Source: Treponema sp.
Lineage (GTDB): Bacteria > Spirochaetota > Spirochaetia > Treponematales > Treponemataceae
NCBI RefSeq assembly: GCF_024696245.1
Contig: NZ_JAILGZ010000080.1
Coordinates: 1 to 52,274 of the forward strand
Direction of reading: 5' to 3'
Length of the DNA: 52,274 nucleotides
A program made the position numbers and the translations under genes. Position 1 is the first letter of the stretch, and every line of letters begins with the position of its first letter. The notes under the pieces are model-generated. The model was not told the origin of the DNA and made no database searches. It saw nothing but the letters and a program-made list of their open reading frames with translations. Shown piece after piece: positions 5,883 through 27,953 of the stretch.

Positions 5883-7130
5883 TTATTCAGCCAGGGTCAG
5901 AGCCAGGCTTGTAATTTGAGTATAAGAGGAAGATTTATCATAGCCGGATAAAGCCCATAGGCTTGCAGCAGAATCTATTGTTATGGTATCACCATTTGAA
6001 GCTGTTTTTATATCCAGCCCTGCTTCAATTTGTTCTTCAATAAGATCCGGAATATAAGAATAGGAATCTGAAGACAGAGCAAATTCTTCAAGGGAATAAT
6101 AAATGCGCACCCAGTTATTTTGAGGATATGTAACAAGGGTGATTTCTGTCTCTCCTGTAATTTCTGCACAATCGGTAACTTCACTTCCATTTATGTAAAA
6201 TTTAACAGGCATAGGATAGTAGACGCTGTAAAGGTCATTGCTATCGATGTCTTTATCGTCAATGGCGGCTTCAATTATATTTTCTATATCGTCAGGTATT
6301 GCAGAAAAAAAATCCAGTCCGCATTCTTCTTCAAGAGAATCTATGCTTACCCTGTAATTGTCCCAGGTATCATCAAGGCAGGAAGGGGAGTTGGGAATCT
6401 TTACGGCAATACTTCTTGTAGTGGCAGTAACCCTTGAAAGATCATTTTGTCCTTCATCAAGAATCAGAATTACCTTCCATGTATAAGCTGGTATTGTAAT
6501 TTGATTCCAGGTTTCCCTGTATGTTCCGTAGCGGTTTTGTGCACCACAGCCCAGGGGTCCTGCAATTATATAAAGTTCTTTTCCGTCAGAAGCAAGATTG
6601 CGGCAGTAGCTTTCAAGGCTTGCCCATGTTCCTCCGTTATTCTGATTTGTCTGGGGAAGCATGTTTGCCATGGTAAAGGTTTCGTAGTTTGTATCTGAAT
6701 CAGAAGTTCTGTCTGCTGAAGGGCACATATGTCCCCGGTCATAGCCTGAGCCTTTGTAGGAAGAGGCCGTGTTTTTATTGAATGTGTCAGGAATGTTTTC
6801 TTCTTCGTGAAAAGAATCTGCATCGCTTCTTCCGGAACTTCCCATGTCTGAGGAGCACAGGTGCCAGCTTACCCAGTTAGGATTGCGGGTGGAATTGTTA
6901 TAACTTAATGCGAAGGTATTTTTTATAACAAGATAGTTGTCTTCCTGTGCAGGATTCTGTTCCGCAGAAGACGGATTGCCCATGTAAAGGGCTGTATTTT
7001 CTTCTTGACCGGTTTCCGTATTCTGTTTTTTTGAATCAGGAGAATTCTGTGAGCAGGAATAAAAGCCGGTTATAAAAATCAGTGAAAGAGAAAAAAATAA
7101 AAATACCTTCTGATTCACTGATTTTTTCAT
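5883..7130 (-). CDS. DNA/RNA non-specific endonuclease lipoprotein (copy 2, with C-terminal extension)
   Basis: A 415-aa exported nuclease. The lipobox YSC puts the lipid-bearing Cys at 26. The NUC1/Serratia-type domain (about 45-290) contains DRGHMCPSAD with the general base His134, and the QTNQNNGGTW block supplies the Mg-binding Asn and neighbouring residues. The enzyme is expected to cut DNA and RNA outside the inner membrane into 5'-phosphate fragments. About 120 residues after the nuclease domain hold a separate beta-rich module (from about KFYINGSEVTDCAEI). The gene begins 14 bp after the paralogue upstream, so the pair is almost certainly one transcript. Unlike the upstream copy it lacks the N-terminal chitobiase-like domain. 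The stop codon sits in an A/T-rich stretch without a clear terminator. Confidence 0.9.
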   Translation of the reverse strand: MKKSVNQKVFLFFSLSLIFITGFYSCSQNSPDSKKQNTETGQEENTALYMGNPSSAEQNPAQEDNYLVIKNTFALSYNNSTRNPNWVSWHLCSSDMGSSGRSDADSFHEEENIPDTFNKNTASSYKGSGYDRGHMCPSADRTSDSDTNYETFTMANMLPQTNQNNGGTWASLESYCRNLASDGKELYIIAGPLGCGAQNRYGTYRETWNQITIPAYTWKVILILDEGQNDLSRVTATTRSIAVKIPNSPSCLDDTWDNYRVSIDSLEEECGLDFFSAIPDDIENIIEAAIDDKDIDSNDLYSVYYPMPVKFYINGSEVTDCAEITGETEITLVTYPQNNWVRIYYSLEEFALSSDSYSYIPDLIEEQIEAGLDIKTASNGDTITIDSAASLWALSGYDKSSSYTQITSLALTLAE

Positions 7131-7144
7131 GGTATGATTCCTTA

Positions 7145-8311
7145 TTATTCTGAATAGAGTGTTGCTTCGAGAGCATCTTCTACGTCATCAGGAAGAGCTG
7201 CAAAGAAGTCGTAGCCGGTAAGAGTTTCAATTTCATCGATGGTACAGGTGTATGACTTCCAGTCAGAACCTACGTTATGTCTGTTTGGAATTTGTACTGC
7301 AATTACAGTGGTGTCTTCTGTCGTAATGCGGGTGCGGTCTTCTTCTCCGCTTTCAAAGGCTATGATGATTTTCCATGTTGAAGTTGGAACTTTTATGTAT
7401 GTCCCGTCTGTAGGAGTTGTTTTGCCGGAAAGGTATGTAACTTCTTCTCCGTTTTTATCGGTTGCTTTTAATTCGTCGTCATAATATGGGCCTGAGAAAA
7501 TATAAGCTTCATTTGCACCACTGGAAACAAGGGTTCTTTCGTAGTTTTCTAATGTTGCCCAGACTTTCTGATTATTGTTGGCTGTCTGTGGAACTATGTT
7601 TGTTGTATAGAATGTGCCCTTTGAATCTTCATCGTTACTGTTTCTGTCAGCATTAGGACACATGTGACCTCTGTCAAAGTTACCGTTTGTGTAATCGCTG
7701 TGTCTTACTTTGTAAAACTCGTCAGGAAGTTTCGGGTTCTGCATGAAATCTCCGTCATAGCGTCCGCTTCCTAAATCGGTAGAACACAGGTGCCATCCAA
7801 CCCAGTTTGGATTGTGAGTCTCGTTATTGAAGGAAACGGTGTAAGTGGCTTCTTCAAGAAGGTAGTTGGTAAGATAGTCTGTGGCATTGGAATCTGTAGT
7901 TGCATTGCTCGGGTTGCCAAAATAAAGGGCAGTGTTTTCTGTTCCAGAAATTGAATAGCTTGCTGAATATCTTTTAGAAAGGTTACCGGCAGCATCCTGT
8001 GCAACGACATATACGGTATGGTTTTTGTCTATGATACAGGAATCAGCTTTGGTTGTTCCGTTTGTTCTTCCTTCATATTTTGGAAAGTTTTCTGCACTGA
8101 TCCTTACGTTATCGAATACATAATAAAAAGTAACACCTTCTGTTTCACAGGAGAAAGTGATTGTATCATCAGCCATAACAACTCCTGCTTCCGGAGTAAA
8201 GGTGATGGCTCCGATTTCTACTTTATCAGATTCTTTGTCGCTGCATGAAGTTAATGTGGAGAATGAAATCAAAATGAGTATTGATGATAAAATACTGAAT
8301 ATCTTTTTCAT
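7145..8311 (-). CDS. DNA/RNA non-specific endonuclease lipoprotein (copy 1, with N-terminal Ig-like module)
   Basis: A 388-aa nuclease lipoprotein (lipobox LTSC, Cys23). Residues about 32-120 form a chitobiase C-terminal-like/Ig module (ITFTPEAGVVMADDTITFSC) of the kind repeated in the protein encoded next upstream. The NUC1 domain follows (about 125-385) with DRGHMCPNADRN, general base His216, and the Asn-rich PQTANNNQKVW metal block. The two nucleases share most domain motifs (TALYxGNPS at the domain start, NPNWVxWHLCS, DRGHMCPxADR), so they arose by tandem duplication. A good promoter (TTGCAA-N16-TATAAT) lies 44-71 bp upstream. Expected role: extracellular cleavage of DNA and RNA for nutrient uptake; the substrate range is inferred from the family only. 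Confidence 0.92.
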   Translation of the reverse strand: MKKIFSILSSILILISFSTLTSCSDKESDKVEIGAITFTPEAGVVMADDTITFSCETEGVTFYYVFDNVRISAENFPKYEGRTNGTTKADSCIIDKNHTVYVVAQDAAGNLSKRYSASYSISGTENTALYFGNPSNATTDSNATDYLTNYLLEEATYTVSFNNETHNPNWVGWHLCSTDLGSGRYDGDFMQNPKLPDEFYKVRHSDYTNGNFDRGHMCPNADRNSNDEDSKGTFYTTNIVPQTANNNQKVWATLENYERTLVSSGANEAYIFSGPYYDDELKATDKNGEEVTYLSGKTTPTDGTYIKVPTSTWKIIIAFESGEEDRTRITTEDTTVIAVQIPNRHNVGSDWKSYTCTIDEIETLTGYDFFAALPDDVEDALEATLYSE

Positions 8312-8354
8312 GATAAAACTCCTGTAATGTAAATTTAAAATAATCGGGTTTAAA

Positions 8355-8382
8355 ATTATATACCCATATCATGGATTTGCAA
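8355..8382 (-). promoter_or_regulatory. Predicted sigma70 promoter of the tandem endonuclease genes
   Basis: On the minus strand -35 TTGCAA (8377-8382), 16-bp spacer, -10 TATAAT (8355-8360) within GGTATATAATT. The same -35, spacer length and -10 context recur upstream of the next gene (11346-11373). Confidence 0.7.
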
Positions 8383-8399
8383 GAAAAAACAACTGCAAT

Positions 8400-8440
8400 A
8401 AAAAAAAGACTGACTCCTTAGCAATTAAGGAATCAGTCTT
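8400..8440 (-). terminator. Intrinsic terminator after the OB-fold lipoprotein gene
   Basis: Fifteen-base arms (8406-8420 and 8426-8440) pair with one mismatch around a 5-nt loop. Reading on the minus strand the stem runs into a tract of T (TCTTTTTTTTA), so it ends transcripts from the gene at 8514-11291. Confidence 0.85.
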
Positions 8441-8469
8441 AAAAATACCTTCAGGTTAATTCACTTAAT

Positions 8470-8500
8470 AAAAGGGTGCATTTTTGAAGTGTACCCTTTT
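8470..8500 (-). terminator. Second hairpin directly behind the stop of the OB-fold lipoprotein gene
   Basis: Arms AAAAGGGTGCA (8470-8480) and TGTACCCTTTT (8490-8500) pair with one wobble. It lies between the stop codon at 8514 and the stronger terminator. Only a short T run follows, so it may act as a 3' end stabiliser rather than the main stop. Confidence 0.55.
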
Positions 8501-8513
8501 ATTGTTTTATGAA

Positions 8514-11291
8514 TTATTCAGTGTAGGTGATTGTGATGGATTTTATAAAAGCTTTAACATTACTTGTTCCTGTGTTTACAAATTCGATTGAATTTGCAGA
8601 ACCTGTCCAAGTTCCTATATTTTCTGATAATTCGTAGGTGCCAGGATATGAAGTGAAATCGCTTCCTGCATTAGAACTTGATGTAAATGTTAATGTTACG
8701 CTTGCAATAGTCTTTGTTGAGGATGCAATTATTAATGAGTTATATCTATACAGTCTAGCCTCTTGACTATTTGAGTTATATGCAGGTGCATTTGAGCCTG
8801 TGTTAGTACCTACGCCTTGTGTTGCAGTTTTATTCCATGTTAATGTCGAATAGGTTGTCGCAGTTGGTAAATCAGAAACCGCTGTAAAGTCTATTGTCTC
8901 CGTTGGCCTGTTATCAATAGTGTAAGATGCACTTACAACCTCAGAAGTGTATTCTCCATTTACTGCAATTGCATAAAGGGTTCCGGCTTCTGTAATTGAA
9001 GGAACTGAAGTACCTTCAACATACTGTGTTCCGGCAGTCTCGTAAGTTGCTTTTGTCATGGCAGCAGTTTCTGTATCTGTTTCTGCAATGAACTGATACC
9101 AGTATTCAACTCCGCTTGTCGGGTAAATGCATGAGAAGGAAATTGCTGTATTTGATGCAACTACACCGCTGGTGCTGAATCTAGGATTTGCAACGTAATC
9201 TGTCGGGTAAGCAATTTTAGCTTCGTCAAAAGTAACGAGGCGCACAAGCTGATAGGTATTGCTCTTTGTATATTCATATGCATAGCCAAAGCAGGTCATT
9301 TCTTTATCAGAATAAGACGGATAAATTGAAGCAGTAGAACTTGTATAGTCGCTTACATAGCCGACTACAGCACATAACTGCATCTTATCTCCGGAATCTG
9401 TCTTAAAGTCTGAAGAGCCTGTAAGGTTTATGTAGTAAATTTCATCAGAGTATCTTGCATCGTCTATAGTTACATCTGTTGCTGTAACTTCAAAAAGACC
9501 GTTATAGGTTGTTGATGAAGAAGGCTTGAAGCTTATTTTTGAACCTACGCGGGCATTTGCTGGTAAAGATGTGTTGTACATGTAAACACCTGCATTTTTG
9601 TCCTGAATAAGGAACTGATTGTCTTTAGTTCCATTGAATGCAACGATTACACCTGAGTATGTGGTGTCAGCATCAATTGAACCTGATACACAGCTGGCAA
9701 GGTTTCCGTCAAAGCCGTAGTTACTGCTTTCAGAAAGTTCAACGAAAGTTGTGTCAAATGGTGTCAGGTACTGAGCCATCTTTACGGCAGGAGAAGTTTT
9801 TCCTTCTGAGTTAACAGCGATTGCATAAACAGTTAAATCTTCACCTTCTGTAAGAGTAATGGTTGTTCCCTGTGTAAACTTTTCTGTGTTAGTTTTATCA
9901 AATTCGCTAACAGTAAATTTTTCTGTAGAATAATAAATATCTACATTATCTGTGGCACATGAAAGTGTAACTGTACTTTCTGCCGGATAGAATTTAGATG
10001 TAGAAGGGTAGTATCCGCTTACAGTATCTCCTTCGATTGCATACTGTACATTTTCAACCTCAGGTGTATCAACTGTAAGAATAGTATCATCTGTGTCAAG
10101 CTGGCTCCAGAGCGTAAACTGAATTTCTCCGCCTGCCTTTACGACCGGACCAATATTTATTTTTTCTTCATCTGTTTTTGCACTTGAATATGTATAAATG
10201 TAATCTGGAGATGTTGTATGTTCACTTGTTGTTCCTCTGAAACCATGGAGAAGCATTCCGTGACCATAGTATTCCGTAAAGTCACAGGTGTAGCTCGGGA
10301 TCTTTTTAAAGTAGATTACACGGGTAACTCTAGAAGCATCAGCTGTAATTGTTCCGAATGCTGTTACTTCAACGCTTCCGCTTGTGTTGTAGATTTCTCC
10401 TGCAGTAACGCTTTCTACTGTTACGTAATCTCCGACTGCAAATGAAGAGCTATCTGGAATTCCATATACCTGGATTCCGGCATCTTTATCCTGAATGTAG
10501 ATATAAGGTTTTCCTTTGGATACTTTATTAGCAGCGCTTGTAACGTATCCGCTTAATGTAAGATTAAATGTTGTTTCACTTAAAATTGCATCTACAGCTT
10601 CTTGAATGTGACCGTCAAAGTCAAAGGCACCTTCTGCATATGCAACAGGAATGTCAAAAGTCTGAGTATTAACAGGAGACCAGCCGTTTGCATTCTTAGC
10701 GATTGCGCTGATTGTCGTAATGTTGTCAAGTGTAATGACAGTGCCTGCTTCGTAAACAGTTCCGCTTGATTCGGCATTTGCTTTTGTAAGTTCAACACCG
10801 TTTGTCGTGTAGTAGATTGTAATTTCATCGTCAACAACAGATGATGTTGAAGTAATTGTAACTGTCGTTCCCTTTGCATATTTACCGTTTGTATCTGCTG
10901 CTGCACTAGTAGTAAATACAGGTTTTACAGGTACAGGAATGGCAGTGTAGGTTGCAGAAGTTATGCTGGAATGATTATTGTTATCATCATATGCAATTGC
11001 ATAAATACTGCAGCTTGCTGTTATCTGGATGCGGGTTGATTCATTTAAGTTTACCAGCTGCCAGTCATCTTCTGTAAATTCATCGTAAGACCATCCGATT
11101 GTAACATCTTCTGTATCACAGGAAAGAGTTACATAATCATTTTCTGGTATATCACCAGATTCAACGCTGAATACAACAGGTTCAATATGAACTGATGAGC
11201 CAGAACTTCCTCCGCTACATGCACTCAATGTAAAAACTGAGGCTGCTGCAAGCGCTAATGCTTTGAAAAGTCCTTTTGTGTTAATTTTCAT
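8514..11291 (-). CDS. Large modular lipoprotein: chitobiase-like/Ig repeats, two OB-fold-like segments and C-terminal jelly-roll
   Basis: A 925-aa exported protein with lipobox LSAC (Cys25). Four Ig-like modules of the chitobiase C-terminal type alternate with two OB-fold-like segments marked by YIYIQDKDAGIQVYG (about 270) and QFLIQDKNAGVYMYN (about 565). The last 130 residues end in a module with SVTLTFTSSSNAGSDF and KAFIKSITITYTE, resembling C-terminal domains found in gut Bacteroidetes surface proteins. No catalytic motif is visible. OB-fold segments of this kind accompany secreted nucleases (YhcR/ExeM-like), so a nucleic-acid binding or capture role is plausible (inference). It sits between the nuclease pair and the 5'-nucleotidase, has its own promoter (11346-11373) and terminators, and shares its N-terminal module type with the endonuclease at 7145. 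Confidence 0.65.
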   Translation of the reverse strand: MKINTKGLFKALALAAASVFTLSACSGGSSGSSVHIEPVVFSVESGDIPENDYVTLSCDTEDVTIGWSYDEFTEDDWQLVNLNESTRIQITASCSIYAIAYDDNNNHSSITSATYTAIPVPVKPVFTTSAAADTNGKYAKGTTVTITSTSSVVDDEITIYYTTNGVELTKANAESSGTVYEAGTVITLDNITTISAIAKNANGWSPVNTQTFDIPVAYAEGAFDFDGHIQEAVDAILSETTFNLTLSGYVTSAANKVSKGKPYIYIQDKDAGIQVYGIPDSSSFAVGDYVTVESVTAGEIYNTSGSVEVTAFGTITADASRVTRVIYFKKIPSYTCDFTEYYGHGMLLHGFRGTTSEHTTSPDYIYTYSSAKTDEEKINIGPVVKAGGEIQFTLWSQLDTDDTILTVDTPEVENVQYAIEGDTVSGYYPSTSKFYPAESTVTLSCATDNVDIYYSTEKFTVSEFDKTNTEKFTQGTTITLTEGEDLTVYAIAVNSEGKTSPAVKMAQYLTPFDTTFVELSESSNYGFDGNLASCVSGSIDADTTYSGVIVAFNGTKDNQFLIQDKNAGVYMYNTSLPANARVGSKISFKPSSSTTYNGLFEVTATDVTIDDARYSDEIYYINLTGSSDFKTDSGDKMQLCAVVGYVSDYTSSTASIYPSYSDKEMTCFGYAYEYTKSNTYQLVRLVTFDEAKIAYPTDYVANPRFSTSGVVASNTAISFSCIYPTSGVEYWYQFIAETDTETAAMTKATYETAGTQYVEGTSVPSITEAGTLYAIAVNGEYTSEVVSASYTIDNRPTETIDFTAVSDLPTATTYSTLTWNKTATQGVGTNTGSNAPAYNSNSQEARLYRYNSLIIASSTKTIASVTLTFTSSSNAGSDFTSYPGTYELSENIGTWTGSANSIEFVNTGTSNVKAFIKSITITYTE

Positions 11292-11345
11292 TACACATCC
11301 CCCTTTTTTTATATTTATTTGCCCGCAAATAGGGGCGGAGTATCA

Positions 11346-11373
11346 ATTATATACCTTGTTGTGAGAATTGCAA
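11346..11373 (-). promoter_or_regulatory. Predicted sigma70 promoter of the OB-fold lipoprotein gene
   Basis: Minus strand: -35 TTGCAA (11368-11373), 16-bp spacer, -10 TATAAT (11346-11351), again inside GGTATATAATT. This matches the nuclease promoter at 8355-8382 in -35, spacing and -10 flank. The leader is about 50 nt and carries a purine-rich ribosome site (GGGGGAT) near the ATG. Confidence 0.7.
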
Positions 11374-11459
11374 TAAAATTCTTACAAGGATTATGATTGA
11401 ATAATAAAATTTAAAAGTTAATTTAAGATTAAAAAAAAGAAAAGTAATTGTAAAAGTAA

Positions 11460-11497
11460 GAAAAAAAGCAGGAAAATATTAAAATAATATTTTCCTG
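11460..11497 (-). terminator. Intrinsic terminator of the 5'-nucleotidase operon
   Basis: A perfect 14-bp stem (11467-11480 with 11484-11497) with a 3-nt loop, followed on the minus strand by TTTTTTT. It marks the 3' end of the four-gene run 19745 to 11532. Confidence 0.93.
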
Positions 11498-11531
11498 CTG
11501 CATGTAATTCAAAGTGAATTAAGGAATAAAA

Positions 11532-13145
11532 TTATTCAGCAATGAGTACCTGAGGAATTTCGCTCCAGCTTTTGCGTACTGTTCCCCAGTTTTTGAGCTG
11601 GTCAATTACAGCGTCACGGAAAGGAATGTATGTGTTGTTTGCAGAAATTGAGCCTGCTTTAATACCTTCAGAGATAACGGTGTATTTATCACCGCCTTCT
11701 GCCATAAAGTCATTTACAACACAAGTATATGTTTCGTTATCCTGTACAGTGCGTCCGTCATCAAGAACAATTCTTGTTACACGGGAACCTTCCGGCATTC
11801 TTGAAGTGTAGTAAACTTTTCCGCCTGCAAACTGTCCTGCACGGAATCCTACGCTGTTAATTCCGTGGTCAACAATTTTCTTAAGGTCTTTTCCTTTAAG
11901 AGTAAGAACAACACCTGTATTATCAAAAGGAATGAGTTCCCACATGTCATTTACTGTAAGTGTTCCGGCTTTTACAGTCTTGCGGAGTCCGCCGCCGTTT
12001 GTAACGGCAAAGTCTGTTTTGTAGGCAGCCTTCATTGCAGAAGCAATTGTATAACCAAGAGGCGTTACATTCGGAACAGTTTCTTCATGGCTCAGTTCAT
12101 TTTCTACAAGACAGATTTTTTCTCCCAGCGCTGCTCCATATTTTGCTTTGTAATCTGCAATGAGAGAAAGTATTTCAGGATCTTCCGTAATTGAATCCTT
12201 ATATTTGAAAACTTCGATTACGTTTCCTTTTGCACTCTTAAGACCATTTTTTGTAAAGGTAAGTTTAATCTGGCTGATTGCACGACCGTAGTTATAAGCC
12301 TGAACAACAGGTTTTCCGTTGAGTGTGCCGTTTACATATTCGTGGCTGTGACCGGTTATGATTGCATCCACTCCTTTGAGTTTTGCAACATCTTCGAGTT
12401 CAAATTTGTCAGAAACATCATTGCTTGCAGAAACTGGAGTTTTTGTAAGACGGTTTTCGTGACTTCCGATGTGACTGAGAACAATGACAGCTTCAGGATC
12501 ATAGCTGGCTTCTACCTTGCGGAGAACTTTGCGGATGCATTCAGCAGGATCGAGGAATTCATAGTTTTCAATTCTTTTTTTGCTGGCTGTAAAGACAGTA
12601 TCTTTTGTTGCTGCACCGATGATGCAGATAAGATGTCCGCCTACATAGCAGAGTTCGTATTCTTTGCACCATTCAGGAATTTTACCGGTTCTTTTATCAA
12701 TGAGATTGCAGGCGATAAAATTAAAGCCGCCGTCTTTTTCCCACTGCTGGAACATCTGGTCTCCCCAGTCAAATTCATGGTTGCCGATTGTACTTGTAAC
12801 TACTCCGACCTTCTTGAAAAAATCGCTCATGATTTTTCCCTGACTGAGGTTAGAAAGGGCACTTCCCTGATAGTTATCTCCGGCTGTGACAAAAATGCTT
12901 TCCGGGTTTGCGAGCTGAAGTTCTTTTATTACTTCGCTGAGTTTTGCTCCGCCAGGATTTTTTCCGGCAAGGTCTTCTTCAATCGTTCCGTGAATATCGT
13001 TTACTGCAAAGATGCTGACATACTTTGATTTTCCGTTTTCAAGAAACTGCGATGCAGAGTTTGTTGTTCCGTATGAAGGAATTTTCTGAGCGAACACACC
13101 CATGCTCAGGAGTGCAGCTGTAAAAAATGTAATTATCTTTTTCAT
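11532..13145 (-). CDS. Secreted 5'-nucleotidase (UshA/NucA family)
   Basis: A 537-aa protein with a classical signal peptide (MKKIITFFTAALLSMGVFAQ). The calcineurin-like metallophosphatase domain (about 42-330) shows the metal motifs FAVNDIHG (Asp50, His52), TAGDNYQGS, GNHEFDWG, SHIGSHEN and ITGHSHE. The C-terminal 5'-nucleotidase domain (about 350-520) has TNGGGLRK and MAEGGDKYT, normally involved in nucleobase stacking. It should remove the 5' phosphate of nucleotides in the periplasm or outside, making nucleosides and phosphate for uptake. As last gene after an exported nuclease, a lamin-tail protein and an outer-membrane protein (23-bp gap to the last), it completes a degradation path. 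No anchoring motif is seen at the C-terminus. Confidence 0.93.
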   Translation of the reverse strand: MKKIITFFTAALLSMGVFAQKIPSYGTTNSASQFLENGKSKYVSIFAVNDIHGTIEEDLAGKNPGGAKLSEVIKELQLANPESIFVTAGDNYQGSALSNLSQGKIMSDFFKKVGVVTSTIGNHEFDWGDQMFQQWEKDGGFNFIACNLIDKRTGKIPEWCKEYELCYVGGHLICIIGAATKDTVFTASKKRIENYEFLDPAECIRKVLRKVEASYDPEAVIVLSHIGSHENRLTKTPVSASNDVSDKFELEDVAKLKGVDAIITGHSHEYVNGTLNGKPVVQAYNYGRAISQIKLTFTKNGLKSAKGNVIEVFKYKDSITEDPEILSLIADYKAKYGAALGEKICLVENELSHEETVPNVTPLGYTIASAMKAAYKTDFAVTNGGGLRKTVKAGTLTVNDMWELIPFDNTGVVLTLKGKDLKKIVDHGINSVGFRAGQFAGGKVYYTSRMPEGSRVTRIVLDDGRTVQDNETYTCVVNDFMAEGGDKYTVISEGIKAGSISANNTYIPFRDAVIDQLKNWGTVRKSWSEIPQVLIAE

Positions 13146-13168
13146 TTAGTTTCTCCTTAGTCCGTGTT

Positions 13169-15040
13169 TTAGTCCAGTTTGATTCTTCCGTTGAGGGTGA
13201 AGCTTGAGATGCGTTCATCGTTGTAACGTGAATATGAAGGGGATGTTACATATTCGGCAGAGATTTCAAGCTGTTTAACAGGTGTAAAGGTTACTCCGGC
13301 ACGAAGCTGTGTAAAATCCATGAATTCTTGTTCAGGAAGATTTGCATAGTCATCCCATTCGGTAAGTTCTGAATTCTTGTAGTAATGAGCTTTTCCAAAG
13401 AGAGTAACAGGAATGCTTGTTACGTCTTCAAGAGGAACACTAACTCCTGCTTCAAATCCAATGCCGTTTACTTTTGAATCATACATGAATGCTTCTGCAC
13501 CGGCTGTAAGGTTTACAATGTCGTAAGCGATAAAGTACTGCGGGTTGAATTCAAGCTTTGCTTTTGCAATTGCTGCTGACTTAAGGTTTGCAATGTAATA
13601 GTCAGAGTCAACTGTGTATCCGTAAAAACGGTCTTCTGTTGTATTGTAGGTTTCGTGGCTGAAGTAGGCGCTCTTAAGCTGTCCTTCTGCAGAGAGTTTT
13701 AATCCGAAGGCACGGGCTGCGGCTTTTGCTGCAAAGGACCATGCGCTCTGGTAGTCATCATCTTCTACATCGCGGTCTTTATAGTTAAGGAACATTCCTT
13801 CAACAGATGCATCAAAAGAAACAAATCCTGCTCTTTCGAATGATGCAAATGCGTCTACTGCAAAGTTTTTGTTAGAAACCAGGGCATCGCTGTAGATTCC
13901 GTCGATTCCTGCAAAAACATTTGCACTTAATGCTTCCAGGAACAGGTTGTAGCGAACGCCAGCCTTAAATGCAAGTTCTCCTTCAAGACCTTCATAATAA
14001 TCAAGGGCCATTGTGTCATAGTTTTCTGCAGTCTGTTTTTCTCCGCCTGCAAGACCTGCTGCAAAGTTTGCCTGAAGTCCTTTAATAAGTCCCTGCTTAA
14101 GGGATACATCTACGGCAGCTCCCCCTTCTGTCTGTCCTGCAAGATATGAAGTAATGTTCTGTCCTACAGTAAGGCGTTTGCCAAGGAAATCAATTCTAGT
14201 ATCTGCTACGCCGCCAATGTTTGTTACTTTAATGTAAGCTGAAGAAACTGCATCAAGAGCTTCTGCTGAAGAGCCTGAACCTTTTGCAACTTTTGAAAAT
14301 TCTTTCTTTGCTTTCATTTTAAGCTGAGCAGCTTTTTTGAGGCTGTCGCTGTATGTCTGATAGTCAATTTGATTTACATCAGAGGTTCCTAAAGAAGAAT
14401 ACTCAACCTGGTCAATTGCAGATGAGATTGTGTATTTAAGATCCTGATAAAGAGCTTCTGCATCTGCCCATTTTGTTGAATCCCAGATAACATCTTTAGC
14501 ATTTTCGACAGTTGATCCCTTGATGAACTGATAGCGGCCTGTTGATGAGCCGTATGCTGTTGCAGGCCATGGGGTTCCGTCTGTAAATCCAAGGGCTGCC
14601 GGTGAAGGAAGTCCGTATTTTTTCCAGTTTGCTTCGTACCAGTCAATCATCGGCTGGATGAGGGAGTAATGGTTTGTATTACTGGTTTCTGAATAACTTG
14701 AAGTTCCGTTGATTGCATCGTTAAGAAGGTTAAGGTCAATGCCAAGACCTACTTCATATCCGATTCCGGAACGGTCTTCAATACCGTCTTCTTTTTCTAC
14801 AGACCATTCGCTGGCTTTGCTGAATCCGCCTTTGATTGTTACATCAAGGTCTGCATTGTATTCACTGGAAAGACCAGGAATTTCTGAAACTGTTTCGTTT
14901 TTGTCAATGTTGAACAGTCCTGATGAGAATGTAACGTCTGCTGAAAATTCAGGATGAAGCGCTGTACTGCTTTCCTGTGCTGCAGCCGGAAGTGCAAGCA
15001 GTGCACCTGCGGCAAAAATTGCTAATCTTGTTTTTTTCAT
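13169..15040 (-). CDS. Predicted outer-membrane protein of the nuclease operon
   Basis: A 623-aa protein with a cleavable signal peptide (about residues 1-21, ending AAAQ). The N-terminal 120 and C-terminal 330 residues alternate amphipathic strands with short turns (for example KAHYYKNSELTEWDDYANL), and the chain ends on strand-like SFTLNGRIKLD, which fits a beta-barrel. Between them, about 130-270, lies a mostly helical insert with Trp/Tyr-rich and Lys/Ala-rich parts. I do not recognise a family. It lies 19 bp downstream of the lamin-tail gene and 23 bp upstream of the 5'-nucleotidase, so a job in moving nucleic-acid breakdown products through the outer membrane is a reasonable but unproven guess. 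Confidence 0.6.
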   Translation of the reverse strand: MKKTRLAIFAAGALLALPAAAQESSTALHPEFSADVTFSSGLFNIDKNETVSEIPGLSSEYNADLDVTIKGGFSKASEWSVEKEDGIEDRSGIGYEVGLGIDLNLLNDAINGTSSYSETSNTNHYSLIQPMIDWYEANWKKYGLPSPAALGFTDGTPWPATAYGSSTGRYQFIKGSTVENAKDVIWDSTKWADAEALYQDLKYTISSAIDQVEYSSLGTSDVNQIDYQTYSDSLKKAAQLKMKAKKEFSKVAKGSGSSAEALDAVSSAYIKVTNIGGVADTRIDFLGKRLTVGQNITSYLAGQTEGGAAVDVSLKQGLIKGLQANFAAGLAGGEKQTAENYDTMALDYYEGLEGELAFKAGVRYNLFLEALSANVFAGIDGIYSDALVSNKNFAVDAFASFERAGFVSFDASVEGMFLNYKDRDVEDDDYQSAWSFAAKAAARAFGLKLSAEGQLKSAYFSHETYNTTEDRFYGYTVDSDYYIANLKSAAIAKAKLEFNPQYFIAYDIVNLTAGAEAFMYDSKVNGIGFEAGVSVPLEDVTSIPVTLFGKAHYYKNSELTEWDDYANLPEQEFMDFTQLRAGVTFTPVKQLEISAEYVTSPSYSRYNDERISSFTLNGRIKLD

Positions 15041-15059
15041 ATTTTATCCTGCCTTCCTT

Positions 15060-16799
15060 TTATTTTTTATAGAATGTAAATTCAAATGCATCACCGGTAC
15101 CGGTTCCGTAGGTTGTGAATTTTTCCGGGTAGTATTCAAGGGCCTGAACTCTGGAACCGTTTACGGCAGCTTTATTGTTGATTACGTAAGTTCCGTTAGA
15201 CTGTTTTTCCAGTGACCAGAGAGAGTAGTCACTAGGAGAGCTTTCAAACGTAAGTCCGGAGCCTGTTGATTTACTTGTAAGGAACTTGTTGTTGAAGGTG
15301 AATGTATAGTAACCTTCATTATCTATTGTTACACATACTGCTGCCATTCCGCTTTCGTACGGAATAGGTTCATCAACAAGTGATACACAGCTCAATACAC
15401 CTGAATTATTGGTTGAACCCATAATTACTTTATTAGCTTTCTGAACAATAAGTACTACATCATTATCAGATATTGAATCTGTCTCGATATAGTTTCCTGC
15501 TACAATAGAGTTCATGTTATACGGAGTAATTATGGTTTTGATTTTATAGTCTGCATAGGTAGTAGCTCCACTGTCGTATACACGAAGGGTAAGCTTTCCT
15601 GTGTCATCATTTAAGGAAGCAGAAAGATCAATTGCAGTTTCGCCTGATGTAACTTTCTTTTCAGTTGATTTTCCACTTGTTAAAAGACGGATGTTTCCTC
15701 CGTCTGAACTTATGACCGGAGTCTGTACGAGACTTGAATCATTAGAGTAAAAGTTGACGGTTATAGATCCCGTTCCTATTGTTGTTTTAAAGAAATCATC
15801 TGAATCTTCAAAGTTAAAATAGGTAAGGGTTGTAGAACCTGCTGTTTTATACGTTGTCGTATTTGTTCTCAGTTCTTTATAACCTGCCGTATTGAGTACA
15901 TCATTTTTTGATTCTGTTGAAGAAGTTGTAAGCCATTCGCTGTCTTTGTAAGAAGTGTATACAGCTACAGTTGATTTTCTCTGCATCTGTTTTGCAACTC
16001 CCCAGCTTAGTCCGTTTCCTTCTCCATTTTCAGGACCGAGGGCATCGATAACGTTTCCGTTGCAGGTGAGGGTAAAGCCGTCCTGTCCGCTGAAAGAAAT
16101 TATTCCGTTAAGGGCTGCATCGCTTATAAAAAGTCCCGATGCAGTTGAAGAAGTTAACCAGGAACATCTCTGACTGTAGATAACCAGTGCCTGTCCGGCA
16201 TTAAGTGTTATGCCTTCAAGTGAAACACTCTGATCTAAGTCTGAGCGGCGTACACCGTCAAGCCATACGTGACGATTTAAATAAACGTCTGATAAATCAA
16301 GTTCATAATCAGACATATTTGAAATCTCCAGGAACTGATTGTTTGAAGACTTGTAGCTGAAAGTTGATGCATTGTAATACTCAGTAAAAAGAAGTGCCCC
16401 GGATTTTTTTGTTATCTGAGAACCTTTTTTTCTTAATATTACAGAATACGTAACGTTTTCATCTTTTGAAGAAACTGTGAGCAGTGTCGGATTTGATGAG
16501 AAATCTTTAGTATTTGTAATGCACTGTGCTCCTCCTGATACAGAAATCTTCGGTGTCAGAGTTTTACGGTTTGCAGAACTCTCGTATAAATCAGACGGAA
16601 CGGTAACAGTAATTGTTTTAGTTTCATCATTTATAGAGCCTGTAAGTGTGCTGGTCAGTACATCAGAATTAGCAGATTTAAGAAATGAAAATTCCGTGAT
16701 GCGGGCCTGAGTGTATTCATCTTCGTCAGAACATGAAATCATTACAGCCGGTACTGCACATAAAAGAAGTGCAGCAAATAATCTGTTTATTTTTTTCAT
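15060..16799 (-). CDS. Lamin-tail-domain surface lipoprotein
   Basis: A 579-aa lipoprotein (lipobox MISC, Cys23). Residues about 30-130 form an Ig-like module of the type found in Bacteroidetes surface proteins (ITVTVPSDLYES, ENVTYSVILRKKG). Residues about 135-290 look like a lamin-tail domain: LLFTEYYNAS opens it, FLEISNMSDYELDLSDVYL and LNAGQALVIYS follow, and the DGFTLTCNGNVIDALG strand closes it. Lamin-tail domains often accompany secreted nucleases and phosphatases and probably bind the surface or DNA. The rest is beta-rich without a known motif. It starts 12 bp after the large nuclease gene stop, hence the same transcript. Confidence 0.7.
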   Translation of the reverse strand: MKKINRLFAALLLCAVPAVMISCSDEDEYTQARITEFSFLKSANSDVLTSTLTGSINDETKTITVTVPSDLYESSANRKTLTPKISVSGGAQCITNTKDFSSNPTLLTVSSKDENVTYSVILRKKGSQITKKSGALLFTEYYNASTFSYKSSNNQFLEISNMSDYELDLSDVYLNRHVWLDGVRRSDLDQSVSLEGITLNAGQALVIYSQRCSWLTSSTASGLFISDAALNGIISFSGQDGFTLTCNGNVIDALGPENGEGNGLSWGVAKQMQRKSTVAVYTSYKDSEWLTTSSTESKNDVLNTAGYKELRTNTTTYKTAGSTTLTYFNFEDSDDFFKTTIGTGSITVNFYSNDSSLVQTPVISSDGGNIRLLTSGKSTEKKVTSGETAIDLSASLNDDTGKLTLRVYDSGATTYADYKIKTIITPYNMNSIVAGNYIETDSISDNDVVLIVQKANKVIMGSTNNSGVLSCVSLVDEPIPYESGMAAVCVTIDNEGYYTFTFNNKFLTSKSTGSGLTFESSPSDYSLWSLEKQSNGTYVINNKAAVNGSRVQALEYYPEKFTTYGTGTGDAFEFTFYKK

Positions 16800-16811
16800 T
16801 GCTTCACCTCT

Positions 16812-19745
16812 TTATTCTATAGTAAATACATCCGGGATTCTGATTAAGTCAGGATCATGGTCAGAAAGATTTACGTGGTTATTGCGCGTAAACATTGAAT
16901 TGATATGGGGAATAAAACAGTAATCTTTCCATGTTTCATCGCTCTTGTCTGTTTTGTCAGCAAGGGAGAAACCTACTTTGTCCCACAGAGCTTTTGTTAC
17001 AAAGATGTGGTCAATTTCCTGCAGGTTGCCCTGGAATGTATATGAGAATTGTTCAACGTAAGGCATTGTTTCTTCTACAATGCTCCACATTATCTGATTA
17101 CCGATTTCGCCTTTAAGAATGCGCTGAGGTGTTGAATAGGCAAAGTCATTCATGTCTCCGCCGACAATAACTTTTGTATTTTCATCAATTCCGAGAATTG
17201 AGTTTACAAAGTCATAAACGGTTCTTGCCTGTCCGTCACGTTTAACTTCACTGAGAAGGAGCGGCGGCTGGATGTTTCCGTACAGAGGGAAGTCTCCGCG
17301 TTTTGAACCGAGGTGGCATCCTACAACAAAGAAGTTCTGGTCAGATGGAGTACCGTCTGCGTTGTTTATTACAAACTCTCCGATTATAGGACGGCGGCTG
17401 TTGTTAAAGTAGCTTGAATGAATGTAGCACGGGCTTTGTGTAAGGTGAGGATTTCCGTCTGTTCCTTTGTATACTCCTGCTTCTGCTTCTGCAAGGGCCC
17501 AGCCCTGAGCGTGGTGATTTGACGTCTGTACCGGCCATTCACTTTCATCAAGTATTGTTGTGCAGGTAGAATAGTCGCGGTTTCCGTTGGTGTCCAGGCT
17601 GCCTCCGTGAGTATTAAAGTAATCGTTTGATGGAAGTCCGCTGTGCTTTGCTGTTACGCGTTCAGTATTGTACATGATTCCTACGCGGATATTAACGCCA
17701 GGTTTTCCGCCTGAGTCCTGTTCGTGGGGATCAACGCACATAAAGTCGTATTGCGGTCCACCGTAGGTTTTCTTTATTACGTCAATGATTCCGGAGAAGT
17801 TTCTTACTGCAGTAACGACACCGTCTTTTTCTGCCCAGGAATTATCCTGATTGTCATAATGAATTGTAGTTGAAGTATCATCACCCATTTCAACAATAAC
17901 AAGTACATCCGGATAAAGAAGATTGTTTTTTATGACGAGAGCAACATTTTCCTGCTTGCTGTTTGATGAACCCTGTGCTTCATAATTTTCTATATTAAAT
18001 GCAGCTACAGTAAGGCTGTTAAGGTTTGTGTTTCCTTTTGTAGTGGAAGACTCACTGGTCCATTTTGGAGTAAACAGTTCATTAGCATCAAAGGAAGCTG
18101 CTTTTGATCCTGTCCTCCATGGAACCGAATTAGTAGTTGAAACAGATTTTGATGTTGAAACTCCGCTTCCAGAAATTTCTGCTGCAATTGAAGCATTTGC
18201 CTTGTAGTACCAGGAATCAGTTATGTCAAAATTCCACTTCTGGTTAGGAATTGTTTCTCCAGTTACACTTTCAATTGTTTCATTGTCGCTTCTTGTGTAA
18301 TAAGGAGTTACAGATGTTTGTGCATTTGAAGAACTTTGTACATAACAAGCTGCAGTATTATTGAGCGGGTGTGCCATGTAAAGGCCGTCTACAGTGTAGT
18401 CCATTACACCACGGAATACTCTTGCAGAAGTTGAATCAACAAGGTAGTCACCAATTTGAGGAATTGCATAGAAGGTTGTCCAGTCAACAGCCTGATAGTC
18501 TACAAAAAGAACTTCTTCGTTAAAGTCCTGAACTCCTGTATCTGCATTTTCCCAGATAACGTTACCCTGCCAGTTTTCATTAAAGGTGCGTGGATATCCG
18601 TTAATGGCATTTGTATTGTCAGGAGTAAGTCCTCCGTCTGCAAGAACAGATGTAAGGTTGTAATAGGTTGCTCCGATTACAAGAGGATCATCAATTCTGA
18701 TAACCATGCTTTCTACTGTTTCAAGAACACTGATGGCATCCTTCATTGGTGCTTCAGCATTACTGTCTGCAGTAAGAACCCTGGCTTCCCTGTAGCCGTC
18801 ATCTGTATGCCCTGAAGTCCAGCTTTCTGCATTTGCAGAAGAGTAAGTAAGAAGAACTCCGTCTGGATAAGGAGCTGTTACATTTACAGAAGACGAAGTC
18901 TTGTGGGCAACAGTTTCTGCATTGATTTCTGTACGGGTAAGTGTTCCTTCAGAAGAACCGTAGCGGTCAAGGGTACGGGTTTCTTCTACAACACCGCTTA
19001 CAACAACAACATCTCCTGCCTCAAGGTCTGTAGGAATTCCTGACTTCCAGTGAGTCTCTTCTGTATCGTCGTAGGCATCATCATGAGTGTTTACAAAAAT
19101 ACCATTTGATTTTGTTCCTGTAAGATCCTTGTCTTCAGGAAGTGCTTCAAGGAAGAAACCATCGTAGCTGAGCCACTGAGGAATTGTTTCTCCGTCGTAG
19201 TCAGTTGTGTCGTATTTAAAGTGAGGTGCCCTGCGGCAGATCATTGTAACAACACCAGTAATTCCGTAGACAGTCTGGCCTTTCATCGGGCTTTCAAGTG
19301 AAGATCCCTGAATGTCAGAAATAGTAAGGGAATCTCCTTCTACTGCTACAAAGTTTGCATTCAGGACTGTTCCTGATGTTGCAGCCTTAGCTACGTTGAT
19401 GGTACTTCCTGAAGAAATTTCAGAAGCATTTTCGTAATCCGGAATTATGGTATAGCCGGATTTTTTTGCCTTTAAGGAAACAGAACCTTTTCCAAGTCCG
19501 TTTAAAGTGTAGCTTCCGTCTGATGAAGTAGTTGCACTTACAGAAGAAAGTCCTTCTACAGTGATTTTTACTCCCTCAAGAGGAAGTGTGCTGTCTGATC
19601 CTTTAAGAGTTATGCATCCTTTTATGGAGTATCGCCCTGTTTTACTGTTGCCATCCAGAAGTGAACAGGATGGTGTAAGGGTGGTCATAACTAAAGGCAG
19701 GAAAAACAGCAGGCAGCTTTGCAAAGATGAATGACGTTTTTTCAT
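16812..19745 (-). CDS. Large exported nuclease lipoprotein: carboxypeptidase-regulatory-like, OB-fold and endonuclease/exonuclease/phosphatase domains
   Basis: A 977-aa lipoprotein (lipobox TPSC, Cys27). Residues about 38-100 make a carboxypeptidase-regulatory-like beta-sandwich (VKITVEGLSSVSATTSSDGS). Residues about 140-300 resemble the OB-fold of ExeM/NucH-type nucleases (GITGVVTMI, then GDVVVVSGVVEE). The endonuclease/exonuclease/phosphatase domain runs from about 580 to the end: VAAFNIENYEA, VIVEMGDD (metal-binding Glu), VGCHLGSKRGD, VIVGGDMNDFAYS (catalytic Asp and Asn), EIDHIFVTK and NLSDHDP (catalytic His). The expected activity is metal-dependent DNA/RNA or phosphodiester cleavage outside the cell. 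It is first in a four-gene operon ending with the 5'-nucleotidase. At nearly 1000 aa it is longer than plain family members because of the front modules. Confidence 0.85.
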   Translation of the reverse strand: MKKRHSSLQSCLLFFLPLVMTTLTPSCSLLDGNSKTGRYSIKGCITLKGSDSTLPLEGVKITVEGLSSVSATTSSDGSYTLNGLGKGSVSLKAKKSGYTIIPDYENASEISSGSTINVAKAATSGTVLNANFVAVEGDSLTISDIQGSSLESPMKGQTVYGITGVVTMICRRAPHFKYDTTDYDGETIPQWLSYDGFFLEALPEDKDLTGTKSNGIFVNTHDDAYDDTEETHWKSGIPTDLEAGDVVVVSGVVEETRTLDRYGSSEGTLTRTEINAETVAHKTSSSVNVTAPYPDGVLLTYSSANAESWTSGHTDDGYREARVLTADSNAEAPMKDAISVLETVESMVIRIDDPLVIGATYYNLTSVLADGGLTPDNTNAINGYPRTFNENWQGNVIWENADTGVQDFNEEVLFVDYQAVDWTTFYAIPQIGDYLVDSTSARVFRGVMDYTVDGLYMAHPLNNTAACYVQSSSNAQTSVTPYYTRSDNETIESVTGETIPNQKWNFDITDSWYYKANASIAAEISGSGVSTSKSVSTTNSVPWRTGSKAASFDANELFTPKWTSESSTTKGNTNLNSLTVAAFNIENYEAQGSSNSKQENVALVIKNNLLYPDVLVIVEMGDDTSTTIHYDNQDNSWAEKDGVVTAVRNFSGIIDVIKKTYGGPQYDFMCVDPHEQDSGGKPGVNIRVGIMYNTERVTAKHSGLPSNDYFNTHGGSLDTNGNRDYSTCTTILDESEWPVQTSNHHAQGWALAEAEAGVYKGTDGNPHLTQSPCYIHSSYFNNSRRPIIGEFVINNADGTPSDQNFFVVGCHLGSKRGDFPLYGNIQPPLLLSEVKRDGQARTVYDFVNSILGIDENTKVIVGGDMNDFAYSTPQRILKGEIGNQIMWSIVEETMPYVEQFSYTFQGNLQEIDHIFVTKALWDKVGFSLADKTDKSDETWKDYCFIPHINSMFTRNNHVNLSDHDPDLIRIPDVFTIE

Positions 19746-25797: not shown

Positions 25798-25868
25798 TCT
25801 TCTCACTTCAAACAATTGCTTAATTGCACATTTTATTATGTGTCGCGGATCATCAGGAGGAAAGTGAT

Positions 25869-27953
25869 ATGGCCGATACAAGTAAACGCAACATGAGCAT
25901 TAAGGTTAAGCTTACTGCCCAGATAGGTTCAATGATTATACTTGCCTGCTTTATAGTTGCAGCTGTAAGTCTTACTGTTTTTGATAAAAGACAGATACTT
26001 TCTACAGAAAAACAGCTTGTTCATTCTGCAGACGGTGCAGCCCTTATTATGGAAGACTGGCTTGTTACCCTTAATGGTTATGCTTCTATTTCTGCCCTTA
26101 ATGCAGACGTAGTCAGGGCTATGAAAAATTCAGATGCCAGTGCCCTTGAAACAGAAATTGCAGGTTATACAGATTCCCTGGATTATGATTTTATGGCCTT
26201 TGTTGATAAAAACGGAAAGGTTATAGCCGGTGGAGCAGACGGATTTTCTGTGGGACAGGATTTGTCCGGAGTAAGGACTGTCCGTAAAGCCCTTTCCGGT
26301 GCAGCAGCCAGTGGTTTTGACAAGGATATGGCCGGTCTTACTGCTTTTGGAGCTTCCTATGCTTACCCGGTAAAGGACGGAGATGAGGTATTAGGTGCAA
26401 CTCTCTTTGTTTACGACCTTACTTCAGATGATTTCATTCACTTTATGCAGACCAGCTACGATGTTGAATGTACAATCTTTTGCGAAGATGTCAGGGTTGC
26501 TTCTTCCCTGGAGAATGTAGTTGGTACAAAGCTTACAAACCTTGCCATTGTTGATCAGGTATATAAGCATGGTGAAACTTACCGTGGTGAAAATACAATT
26601 AAGAATATTGATTATTATTCCATTTATTCACCACTTAAAAATGATGACGGTCAGATTGCCGGAATGCTGTTTATCGCCAAGTCTCTTGCTGATATTGAAG
26701 CCATTAAATATGAAACCCTTAATGTAGTAGTTCCTGTGGGAATTTGTCTTGCCTTTGTACTTATGATTATAGGCTTCCTTTTTGTTAAAAGGCTTATGTG
26801 GCGTATTTCTAACGTTACAAAACAGCTGGAAGAAATGGCTACTGGAGAAGCTGACCTTACCAAGAGGGTTACCCTCCGCAAAAGGGATGAAATTGGTGAC
26901 CTGGTTATTAACTTTAATAAGTTTTGTGACAAGCTTCATCAGATTATTGGAGAAACAAAGAAGTCTAAGGATGAACTCAGCCTTTCCGGAGAAAGCATGA
27001 CTGCCAGTACCCATGATACTGCAAGTTCAATTGTTCAGATTACAAGTAACATTGACAGTATTGCTGACCAGATTAAGACTCAGGATCATTCAGTTCAGCA
27101 GACAGCAGGGGCAGTAGAAGAGATTTCTTCCAATATTGAATCCCTTAACCGCATGATAGAAAATCAGTCTTCCGGTGTAACTCAGGCCAGTGCAGCTGTA
27201 GAAGAAATGATAGGAAACATTAATTCTGTAAATCATTCTGTAGAAAAAATGGCATCTTCTTTTGATGAACTTGAAGAAAATGCAGATACAGGATTTAAGA
27301 AGCAGGGTGATGTAAACGAACGTATTCTTCAGATTGAACAGCAGAGCCAGATGCTTATGGAAGCTAACCTTGCAATTTCAAGCATTGCAGAACAGACAAA
27401 CCTTCTTGCCATGAATGCCGCAATTGAAGCCGCTCATGCCGGAGAAGCAGGTAAGGGCTTTGCCGTAGTTGCAGACGAAATCCGTAAGCTTTCAGAAACA
27501 TCTTCTGCCCAGTCAAAGACAATCGGTACCCAGCTTTCCCACATCAAGGATTCTATTGGAGAAGTTGTATCAGCTTCCAATGAATCAAGCCGTTCTTTTG
27601 CTGTAGTATCAGAAAAGATTCGCGAAACTGACCAGCTGGTAATGCAGATCAGGGCTGCTATGGAAGAACAGAACCAGGGTTCTATTCAGATTACAGAAGC
27701 CCTTAAGACTATGAATGACAGCACTCAGGAAGTTCGTGGTGCATCAGAAGAAATGTCTAACGGAAGTAAGGTTATTCTTGATGAAATTAAACTTTTGCAG
27801 GAATCTACCTTTACAATGAAGAATAGTATGGATGAAATGTCAGCTGGTGCCCGTAAGATTAATGAAACAGGAACAGCCCTGACAGGAATTAATCAGCAGG
27901 TACAGGGAGCCATTGATAAGATTGGTTCTCAGATTGACTTGTTCAGGGTATAA
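25869..27953 (+). CDS. Methyl-accepting chemotaxis protein with Cache-type sensor
   Basis: A 694-aa receptor. The start at 25869 (MADTSKRN) is favoured by AGGAGG 9 nt upstream over an in-frame ATG 15 codons earlier. Order: transmembrane helix (about 14-38), extracellular sensor (about 40-285) of Cache type ([16 protein letters not shown]; a second part with [13 protein letters not shown]), transmembrane helix (about 287-310), HAMP (about 310-360) and cytoplasmic signalling domain with the conserved tip [19 protein letters not shown] (about 510). It feeds CheA/CheW in chemotaxis. The ligand is unknown. It is a single-gene unit with its own terminator. Confidence 0.95.

Follow-up and report, generated by a model that had tools for sequence, protein, structure and literature searches.

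A probable mobile nucleic-acid scavenging locus of spirochaetes with its own predicted outer-membrane channel

Introduction

The closest described counterparts of the locus analysed here are the "DNA-degradation loci" of Ca. Izemoplasmatales, which their authors likened to polysaccharide-utilization loci (PULs) and whose multipartite organisation was, to those authors' knowledge, undescribed in other microorganisms (Wasmund et al. 2021, PMC8289736). In Shewanella oneidensis, the nuclease ExeM unites a lamin-tail domain (LTD), an OB-like region and an endonuclease/exonuclease/phosphatase (EEP) domain in one protein, and all three are required for full activity (PMC6085458). Flavobacterium carries PUL-like organic-phosphorus clusters (PusCD) built on TonB-dependent SusCD-like pairs, and its phosphate-induced LTD-EndA extracellular nucleases are orphans encoded outside these clusters (PMC8115612). 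Cultured Spirochaetota, in turn, were classed in a Black Sea study as fermenters of simpler matter and not as DNA specialists (PMC11129491). A search of mostly open-access literature for growth of spirochaetes on DNA, or for any locus named for nucleic-acid utilisation, returned nothing closer than PMC8289736, and no description of the present locus or of its outer-membrane protein was found in the open-access literature searched.

As nutrients, DNA and RNA abound in sediments and in the rumen, yet little is known about which bacteria take up these polymers and about the way in which large, charged pieces pass an outer membrane. Here we analyse a locus from a Treponema sp., contained in a stretch of 52,274 nucleotides (hereafter the window), which by published description resembles the Ca. 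Izemoplasmatales loci in its co-located secreted nucleases and phosphohydrolases and in associating a large nuclease with nucleic-acid-binding and putative lamin-tail domains, which in those loci sit on the nuclease itself (PMC8289736).

Results

A preliminary description had reported seven consecutive minus-strand genes for exported proteins at 5883-19745, and the seven open reading frames are indeed present in an uninterrupted row, all intact, with families and catalytic motifs as described (Table 1). Export signals were recognised in all seven by motif or by eye. Lipobox-like cysteines occur in EEP, LTD, OB and NUC1b and, in the atypical form FYSC, in NUC1a, and the three nucleases would therefore be membrane-anchored; 5NT and OMP carry ordinary signal peptides, which for 5NT is most simply compatible with a periplasmic location. 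Whether a Treponema lipoprotein resides on the surface or in the periplasm is not deducible from sequence, and many are periplasmic.

Table 1. Genes and putative transcription signals of the locus (positions in the window)
Feature	Position	Strand	Description
EEP	16812-19745	-	977-aa ExeM-like endonuclease/exonuclease/phosphatase lipoprotein
LTD	15060-16799	-	579-aa putative lamin-tail-domain lipoprotein, lipobox MISC
OMP	13169-15040	-	623-aa predicted outer-membrane beta-barrel, family without a name
5NT	11532-13145	-	537-aa UshA-type 5'-nucleotidase (assigned from sequence)
Strong intrinsic-terminator-like hairpin, 15 pairs	11467-11499	-	3' of 5NT; closes the EEP-LTD-OMP-5NT unit
Promoter-like TTGCAA-16-TATAAT	11346-11373	-	upstream of OB; conserved in G001
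OB	8514-11291	-	925-aa modular lipoprotein, two related OB-fold domains (predicted)
Two terminator-like hairpins	8406-8504	-	between OB and NUC1b
Promoter-like TTGCAA-16-TATAAT	8355-8382	-	upstream of NUC1b; hexamers and spacing identical to the OB promoter; conserved in G001
NUC1b	7145-8311	-	sugar-nonspecific endonuclease lipoprotein, DRGH at aa 213
NUC1a	5883-7130	-	sugar-nonspecific endonuclease, DRGH at aa 131

EEP, LTD, OMP and 5NT are separated by intergenic gaps of only 12-23 bases and, taken together with the terminator- and promoter-like elements, this spacing suggests three transcription units: EEP-LTD-OMP-5NT, OB, and NUC1b-NUC1a. The same signals, terminators and internal promoters, speak against transcription of all seven genes as a single operon, which we reject. 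Both promoter-like sites are kept in the nearest relative, G001, despite the inversion of OB in that genome, and the identity of their hexamers together with this conservation suggests that the separate units are co-expressed. The promoter scan as a whole gave counts not above chance, so that the weight of these two sites derives from their position and conservation. None of the mapped clusters encodes a regulator, a transporter for phosphate or for passage of the inner membrane, or a TonB/SusCD pair. Downstream of the cluster, an oligopeptide-type ABC transporter was seen in G030 and its binding protein in G175, a close relative, and only in these two. The opposite strand of the window encodes, some 6 kb upstream of the locus, a single-Cache-domain methyl-accepting chemotaxis protein (25824-27953).

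The largest nuclease, EEP, consists of an N-terminal CarboxypepD_reg-like domain, a middle region and a C-terminal EEP domain. Although the latter is weak in Pfam (23.2 bits against a cut-off of 24.5), a profile search of solved structures retrieved the EEP proteins 9sf8/9sf9 with E ~1e-33, together with a faint match to their N-terminal region. The catalytic motifs (N/E/GDxND/IDHxF/SDH) are complete and invariant in five orthologues. Similarly to ExeM, the protein thus has its catalytic residues and matches the family model NF033681 (ExeM/NucH) over the catalytic part, but with 67.1 bits it stays far below the cut-off of 300. A plasmid origin was considered and rejected, since EEP matches on plasmids span the nuclease domain only, at ~30% identity. 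NUC1a and NUC1b belong to Endonuclease_NS (PF01223), with E-values of 8e-55 and 2.5e-47 and scores of 186 and 162 bits (cut-off 23), and both possess the DRGH motif and the Mg-binding Asn expected of members of that family. The nearest solved relative of NUC1a is Anabaena NucA (1zm8, E 2e-65), aligned over the whole nuclease domain. A third NUC1 is encoded in the same genome outside the window (G000:C86:8784-9383).

5NT scored above cut-off for both 5_nucleotid_C (PF02872) and Metallophos (PF00149), matched the solved structures 3ivd, 2z1a and UshA, and retains all five metal motifs and the substrate-domain motifs intact, which on sequence grounds assigns it to the UshA-type 5'-nucleotidases. 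Several nucleotides and sugar-nucleotides can serve as substrates of such enzymes. Elsewhere in the genome we found three Bmp-family (Bmp/PnrA, nucleoside-binding) and four PNP/UDP-family (phosphorylase) proteins, as well as two further proteins with a 5'-nucleotidase C-domain; the latter, together with the third NUC1, mean that the locus is not the sole source of these activities.

The two remaining lipoproteins are LTD and OB. LTD matched PF00932 weakly (28 bits, below the cut-off of 34.3); different lipoproteins of the clusters in L054 and L059 reached 46 bits. OB carries its two OB domains at about 10047-10658 and 9177-9746, alongside Fn3_assoc/CHB_HEX_C modules. In some species, among them G030 with its fusion, such OB domains form the C-terminal part of LTD; elsewhere they sit on a lipoprotein of their own. 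The domain that was modelled (pLDDT 82, pTM 0.82) aligned best, at Z 9.2 and with an rmsd of 2.9 over 96 residues, with OB folds that bind nucleic acids, RPA70N among them. Foldseek with the same model returned no E-value below 0.001, the best being 0.015, and DUF5689 was matched weakly by 5 of 16 members. The model supports an OB-like barrel fold for these predicted domains.

Neither Pfam nor NCBIfam named the OMP of the window. No Pfam family was detected in any of 12 members of the OMP family and no sequence match was found in the PDB, and membership of a named family was rejected on this basis. The AlphaFold2 model built from 11 sequences is of middling confidence (mean pLDDT 69, pTM 0.58) and shows about 20 long strands and, at residues 103-264, a helical insert. 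Structural comparison ranked OprD/Occ porins and Campylobacter MOMP highest (Z ~17-18), and against the substrate-specific porins it reached Z 18.1 with an rmsd of 4.2 over 304 residues. The model hence supports OMP being an antiparallel outer-membrane barrel, preceded by a signal peptide and OprD/Occ-like in its predicted fold, even though the sequence does not place it in the OprD family. A porin-like fold alone does not reveal the ligand. Between the OMPs of the two bacterial families described below, conservation is highest in the centre of the insert (residues 120-200, including QPMIDWY), with 46% vs 27% for the barrel, and it is here that we would expect a gate or binding site.

The preliminary description had proposed a search of related genomes for the same genes in the same order, and this search bore the cluster out: EEP-LTD-OMP-5NT are in the same order in all eight carriers within the genus (the G141 contig terminates within 5NT), and a second family belonging to the same order has the cluster in rearranged form. 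Full-length EEP was found in 8 of 196 genus genomes and OMP in 8 of 200, these being the identical eight genomes; in the second family, OMP occurs in 5 of 23 genomes and a strong EEP match in the same five. This co-occurrence has a Fisher p of about 3e-21, uncorrected for relatedness. With 8 carriers among about 200 genomes, the locus is clearly not a genus-wide trait. Downstream of the four core genes, most genus carriers have OB, NUC1 in one or two copies, or both, the G086 cluster having OB and lacking NUC1, and NUC1 and OB are the variable members. NUC1 is present in 153 of 196 genus genomes, mostly as one copy, so the cluster NUC1 genes are largely extra copies and NUC1 was discarded as a marker of the cluster.

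In the second family, OMP is divergent from EEP-LTD in G262, G359, G450 and G495, with 5NT behind OMP or convergent to it (the G359 contig ends beside OMP, so that 5NT cannot be judged there), while UBA1306 has OMP-5NT-EEP-LTD on a single strand. These clusters yielded no NUC1 and have instead a small second EEP nuclease alongside and, in two, an Endonuclease I gene, suggesting that the nuclease function was retained and the gene swapped. The Endonuclease I proteins in question carry Ig-like or repeat domains (L058:16159-17595, L057:1080-2315). Scanning 84,980 named GTDB genomes with the OMP profile, by means of one short peptide pattern and hence not exhaustively, yielded ten loci, each of which also has EEP, LTD and 5NT, in at least three gene arrangements overall. 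They belong to Treponema MAGs, several from ruminant stomach, and to other Spirochaetes/Spirochaetales MAGs (GWB1_60_80, UBA1306, Zod_Metabat.547, QR_Bin.15). Gene order thus changes between families and the genes stay clustered, and the trees of EEP, LTD, OMP and 5NT are nearly congruent (RF 0-2, 9 splits each), with at most one differing branch.

Identity at four-fold sites between the window and G001 is 96% for OMP, 91% for 5NT and 83% for NUC1b, compared with 57% and 47% for the flanking ABC-F and SH3 genes. Over the same comparison (L011; window 11532-18000), EEP and LTD are mosaic: the catalytic part of EEP and the ends of LTD are nearly identical, and EEP residues 1-600 and the middle of LTD are at or near background. 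The silent-site pattern and the patchy distribution indicate horizontal exchange of the locus, and the mosaic indicates recombination with this second Treponema species. The OB gene of G001 (L011:3121-5772) is inverted and partly replaced, retaining the first 220 residues of the window's OB followed by domains that resemble the C-terminus of the window's LTD, an arrangement that we read as domain shuffling between cluster lipoproteins. PD-(D/E)XK / YhgA-like transposase-type genes adjoin the cluster in G001 and G086 (L011:2021-2881, L011:6191-7171, L012:4299-5297) and are possibly linked to its rearrangement.

Discussion

Cumulatively, these findings are best explained by a mobile accessory locus with which host-associated and environmental spirochaetes, some of them from gut and groundwater, probably scavenge nucleic acids, and which includes a predicted outer-membrane channel of its own. 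The lipid-anchored LTD and OB would hold DNA or RNA at the cell surface, where the equally anchored EEP, NUC1a and NUC1b would cut the polymer to oligonucleotides and 5'-phosphate mononucleotides. These products would then cross the outer membrane through the OMP barrel and be stripped of phosphate by 5NT in the periplasm, and the resulting nucleosides could enter by transporters of the Bmp/PnrA type encoded elsewhere, to be split by phosphorylases. The full path from polymer to nucleoside plus phosphate envisaged in the preliminary description is thus available on paper, with an enzyme set whose motifs are intact, and it is from this set that we infer the pathway. That the EEP, LTD and OB parts, split here, parallel the three regions of ExeM counts in favour of scavenging.

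A different purpose is conceivable, in which the locus serves to clear or survive extracellular DNA (neutrophil traps, mucus, biofilm matrix) or to help the cells spread in digesta that are viscous and rich in DNA; the nucleotidase would then dispose of immune-active nucleotides, and nutrition would be secondary. Matrix and trap degradation by extracellular nucleases is described for other bacteria (PMC9294136, PMC3212620), and ruminant stomach MAGs are among the named Treponema carriers. The locus is, however, also present in GWB1_60_80, UBA1306, Zod_Metabat.547 and QR_Bin.15, whose record titles name no animal host, and a dedicated barrel so strictly tied to a nuclease suits uptake better than dispersal, which leaves clearance an unlikely main role. 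We give somewhat less credence still to a core that acts on another phosphodiester or phosphoester polymer, such as teichoic-acid-like polymers, phospholipid head groups, nucleotide sugars or cyclic dinucleotides, with NUC1 as a neighbour that has a separate job. The EEP enzymes do include lipid and inositol phosphatases, the family model name extends UshA substrates to UDP-sugars, and NUC1 lies in a transcription unit of its own and is absent in G086; nevertheless, the nearest solved relatives and family models of EEP are of the ExeM-like/EEP nuclease type, down to the same N-terminal region, its partners with OB fold and LTD are indicative of nucleic acid, and almost every complete cluster includes NUC1 or other nucleases (EndoI, a second EEP).

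One might also suppose that unrelated exported proteins lie side by side by chance and have no joint function, considering how many lipoproteins spirochaetes have and how common NUC1 alone is in the genus. The perfect EEP-OMP co-occurrence, the conserved order, the clustering maintained through rearrangement and the congruent trees make chance highly improbable overall and rule it out for the four core genes; it could apply to the outer members in single genomes.

Returning to nucleic-acid scavenging as the preferred explanation, we tentatively propose, as a bolder idea that may well turn out otherwise, that OMP founds a new family of outer-membrane channels for nucleotides or short oligonucleotides, and that surface nucleases, channel and periplasmic nucleotidase form one chain that moves between species as a unit, a nucleic-acid utilisation system of diderm bacteria. 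An ExeM-like nuclease that is always paired with one barrel family offers a testable candidate channel, and it makes spirochaetes candidate nucleic-acid feeders.

Individually, the proteins combine familiar and divergent traits. With UshA and other periplasmic 5'-nucleotidases, 5NT shares both domains and all metal motifs, but it belongs to a distinct set encoded beside OMP. NUC1a differs from Anabaena NucA in being a probable lipoprotein with an extra C-terminal segment, and in being one of two tandem NUC1 copies within a nuclease cluster. The predicted barrel of OMP superposes on OprD/Occ porins and C. jejuni MOMP over about 300 residues, yet it differs from both in its ~10% identity, greater number of predicted strands, 160-residue helical insert and lack of a Pfam family. 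As for the nuclease itself, the three parts that ExeM carries in one polypeptide are distributed here, with LTD, and often OB too, on separate lipoproteins.

At the level of the locus, the Flavobacterium PusCD clusters are PUL-like for organic phosphorus, but they are SusCD-based and leave the nucleases outside (PMC8115612). Ca. Izemoplasmatales have no outer membrane and their loci include ABC and phosphate transporters, whereas the spirochaete loci encode an outer-membrane barrel and no transporter (PMC8289736); nucleoside/nucleobase and phosphate transporters of the Izemoplasmatales type were absent from all spirochaete clusters in the maps examined. The PUL-like logic for DNA/RNA put forward in the preliminary description accordingly holds for the clustering of the enzymes and is incomplete in that an inner-membrane transporter, a TonB/SusCD pair and a regulator are missing from the cluster. 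Its statement that no named system of this layout is known in Treponema agrees with the open-access literature searched, and the concept has been published for another phylum (Ca. Izemoplasmatales, PMC8289736). The concept is therefore not new; what is new is its diderm spirochaete variant and, as the most novel part, the OMP family, by which PUL-like logic is extended from a wall-less group to diderm bacteria.
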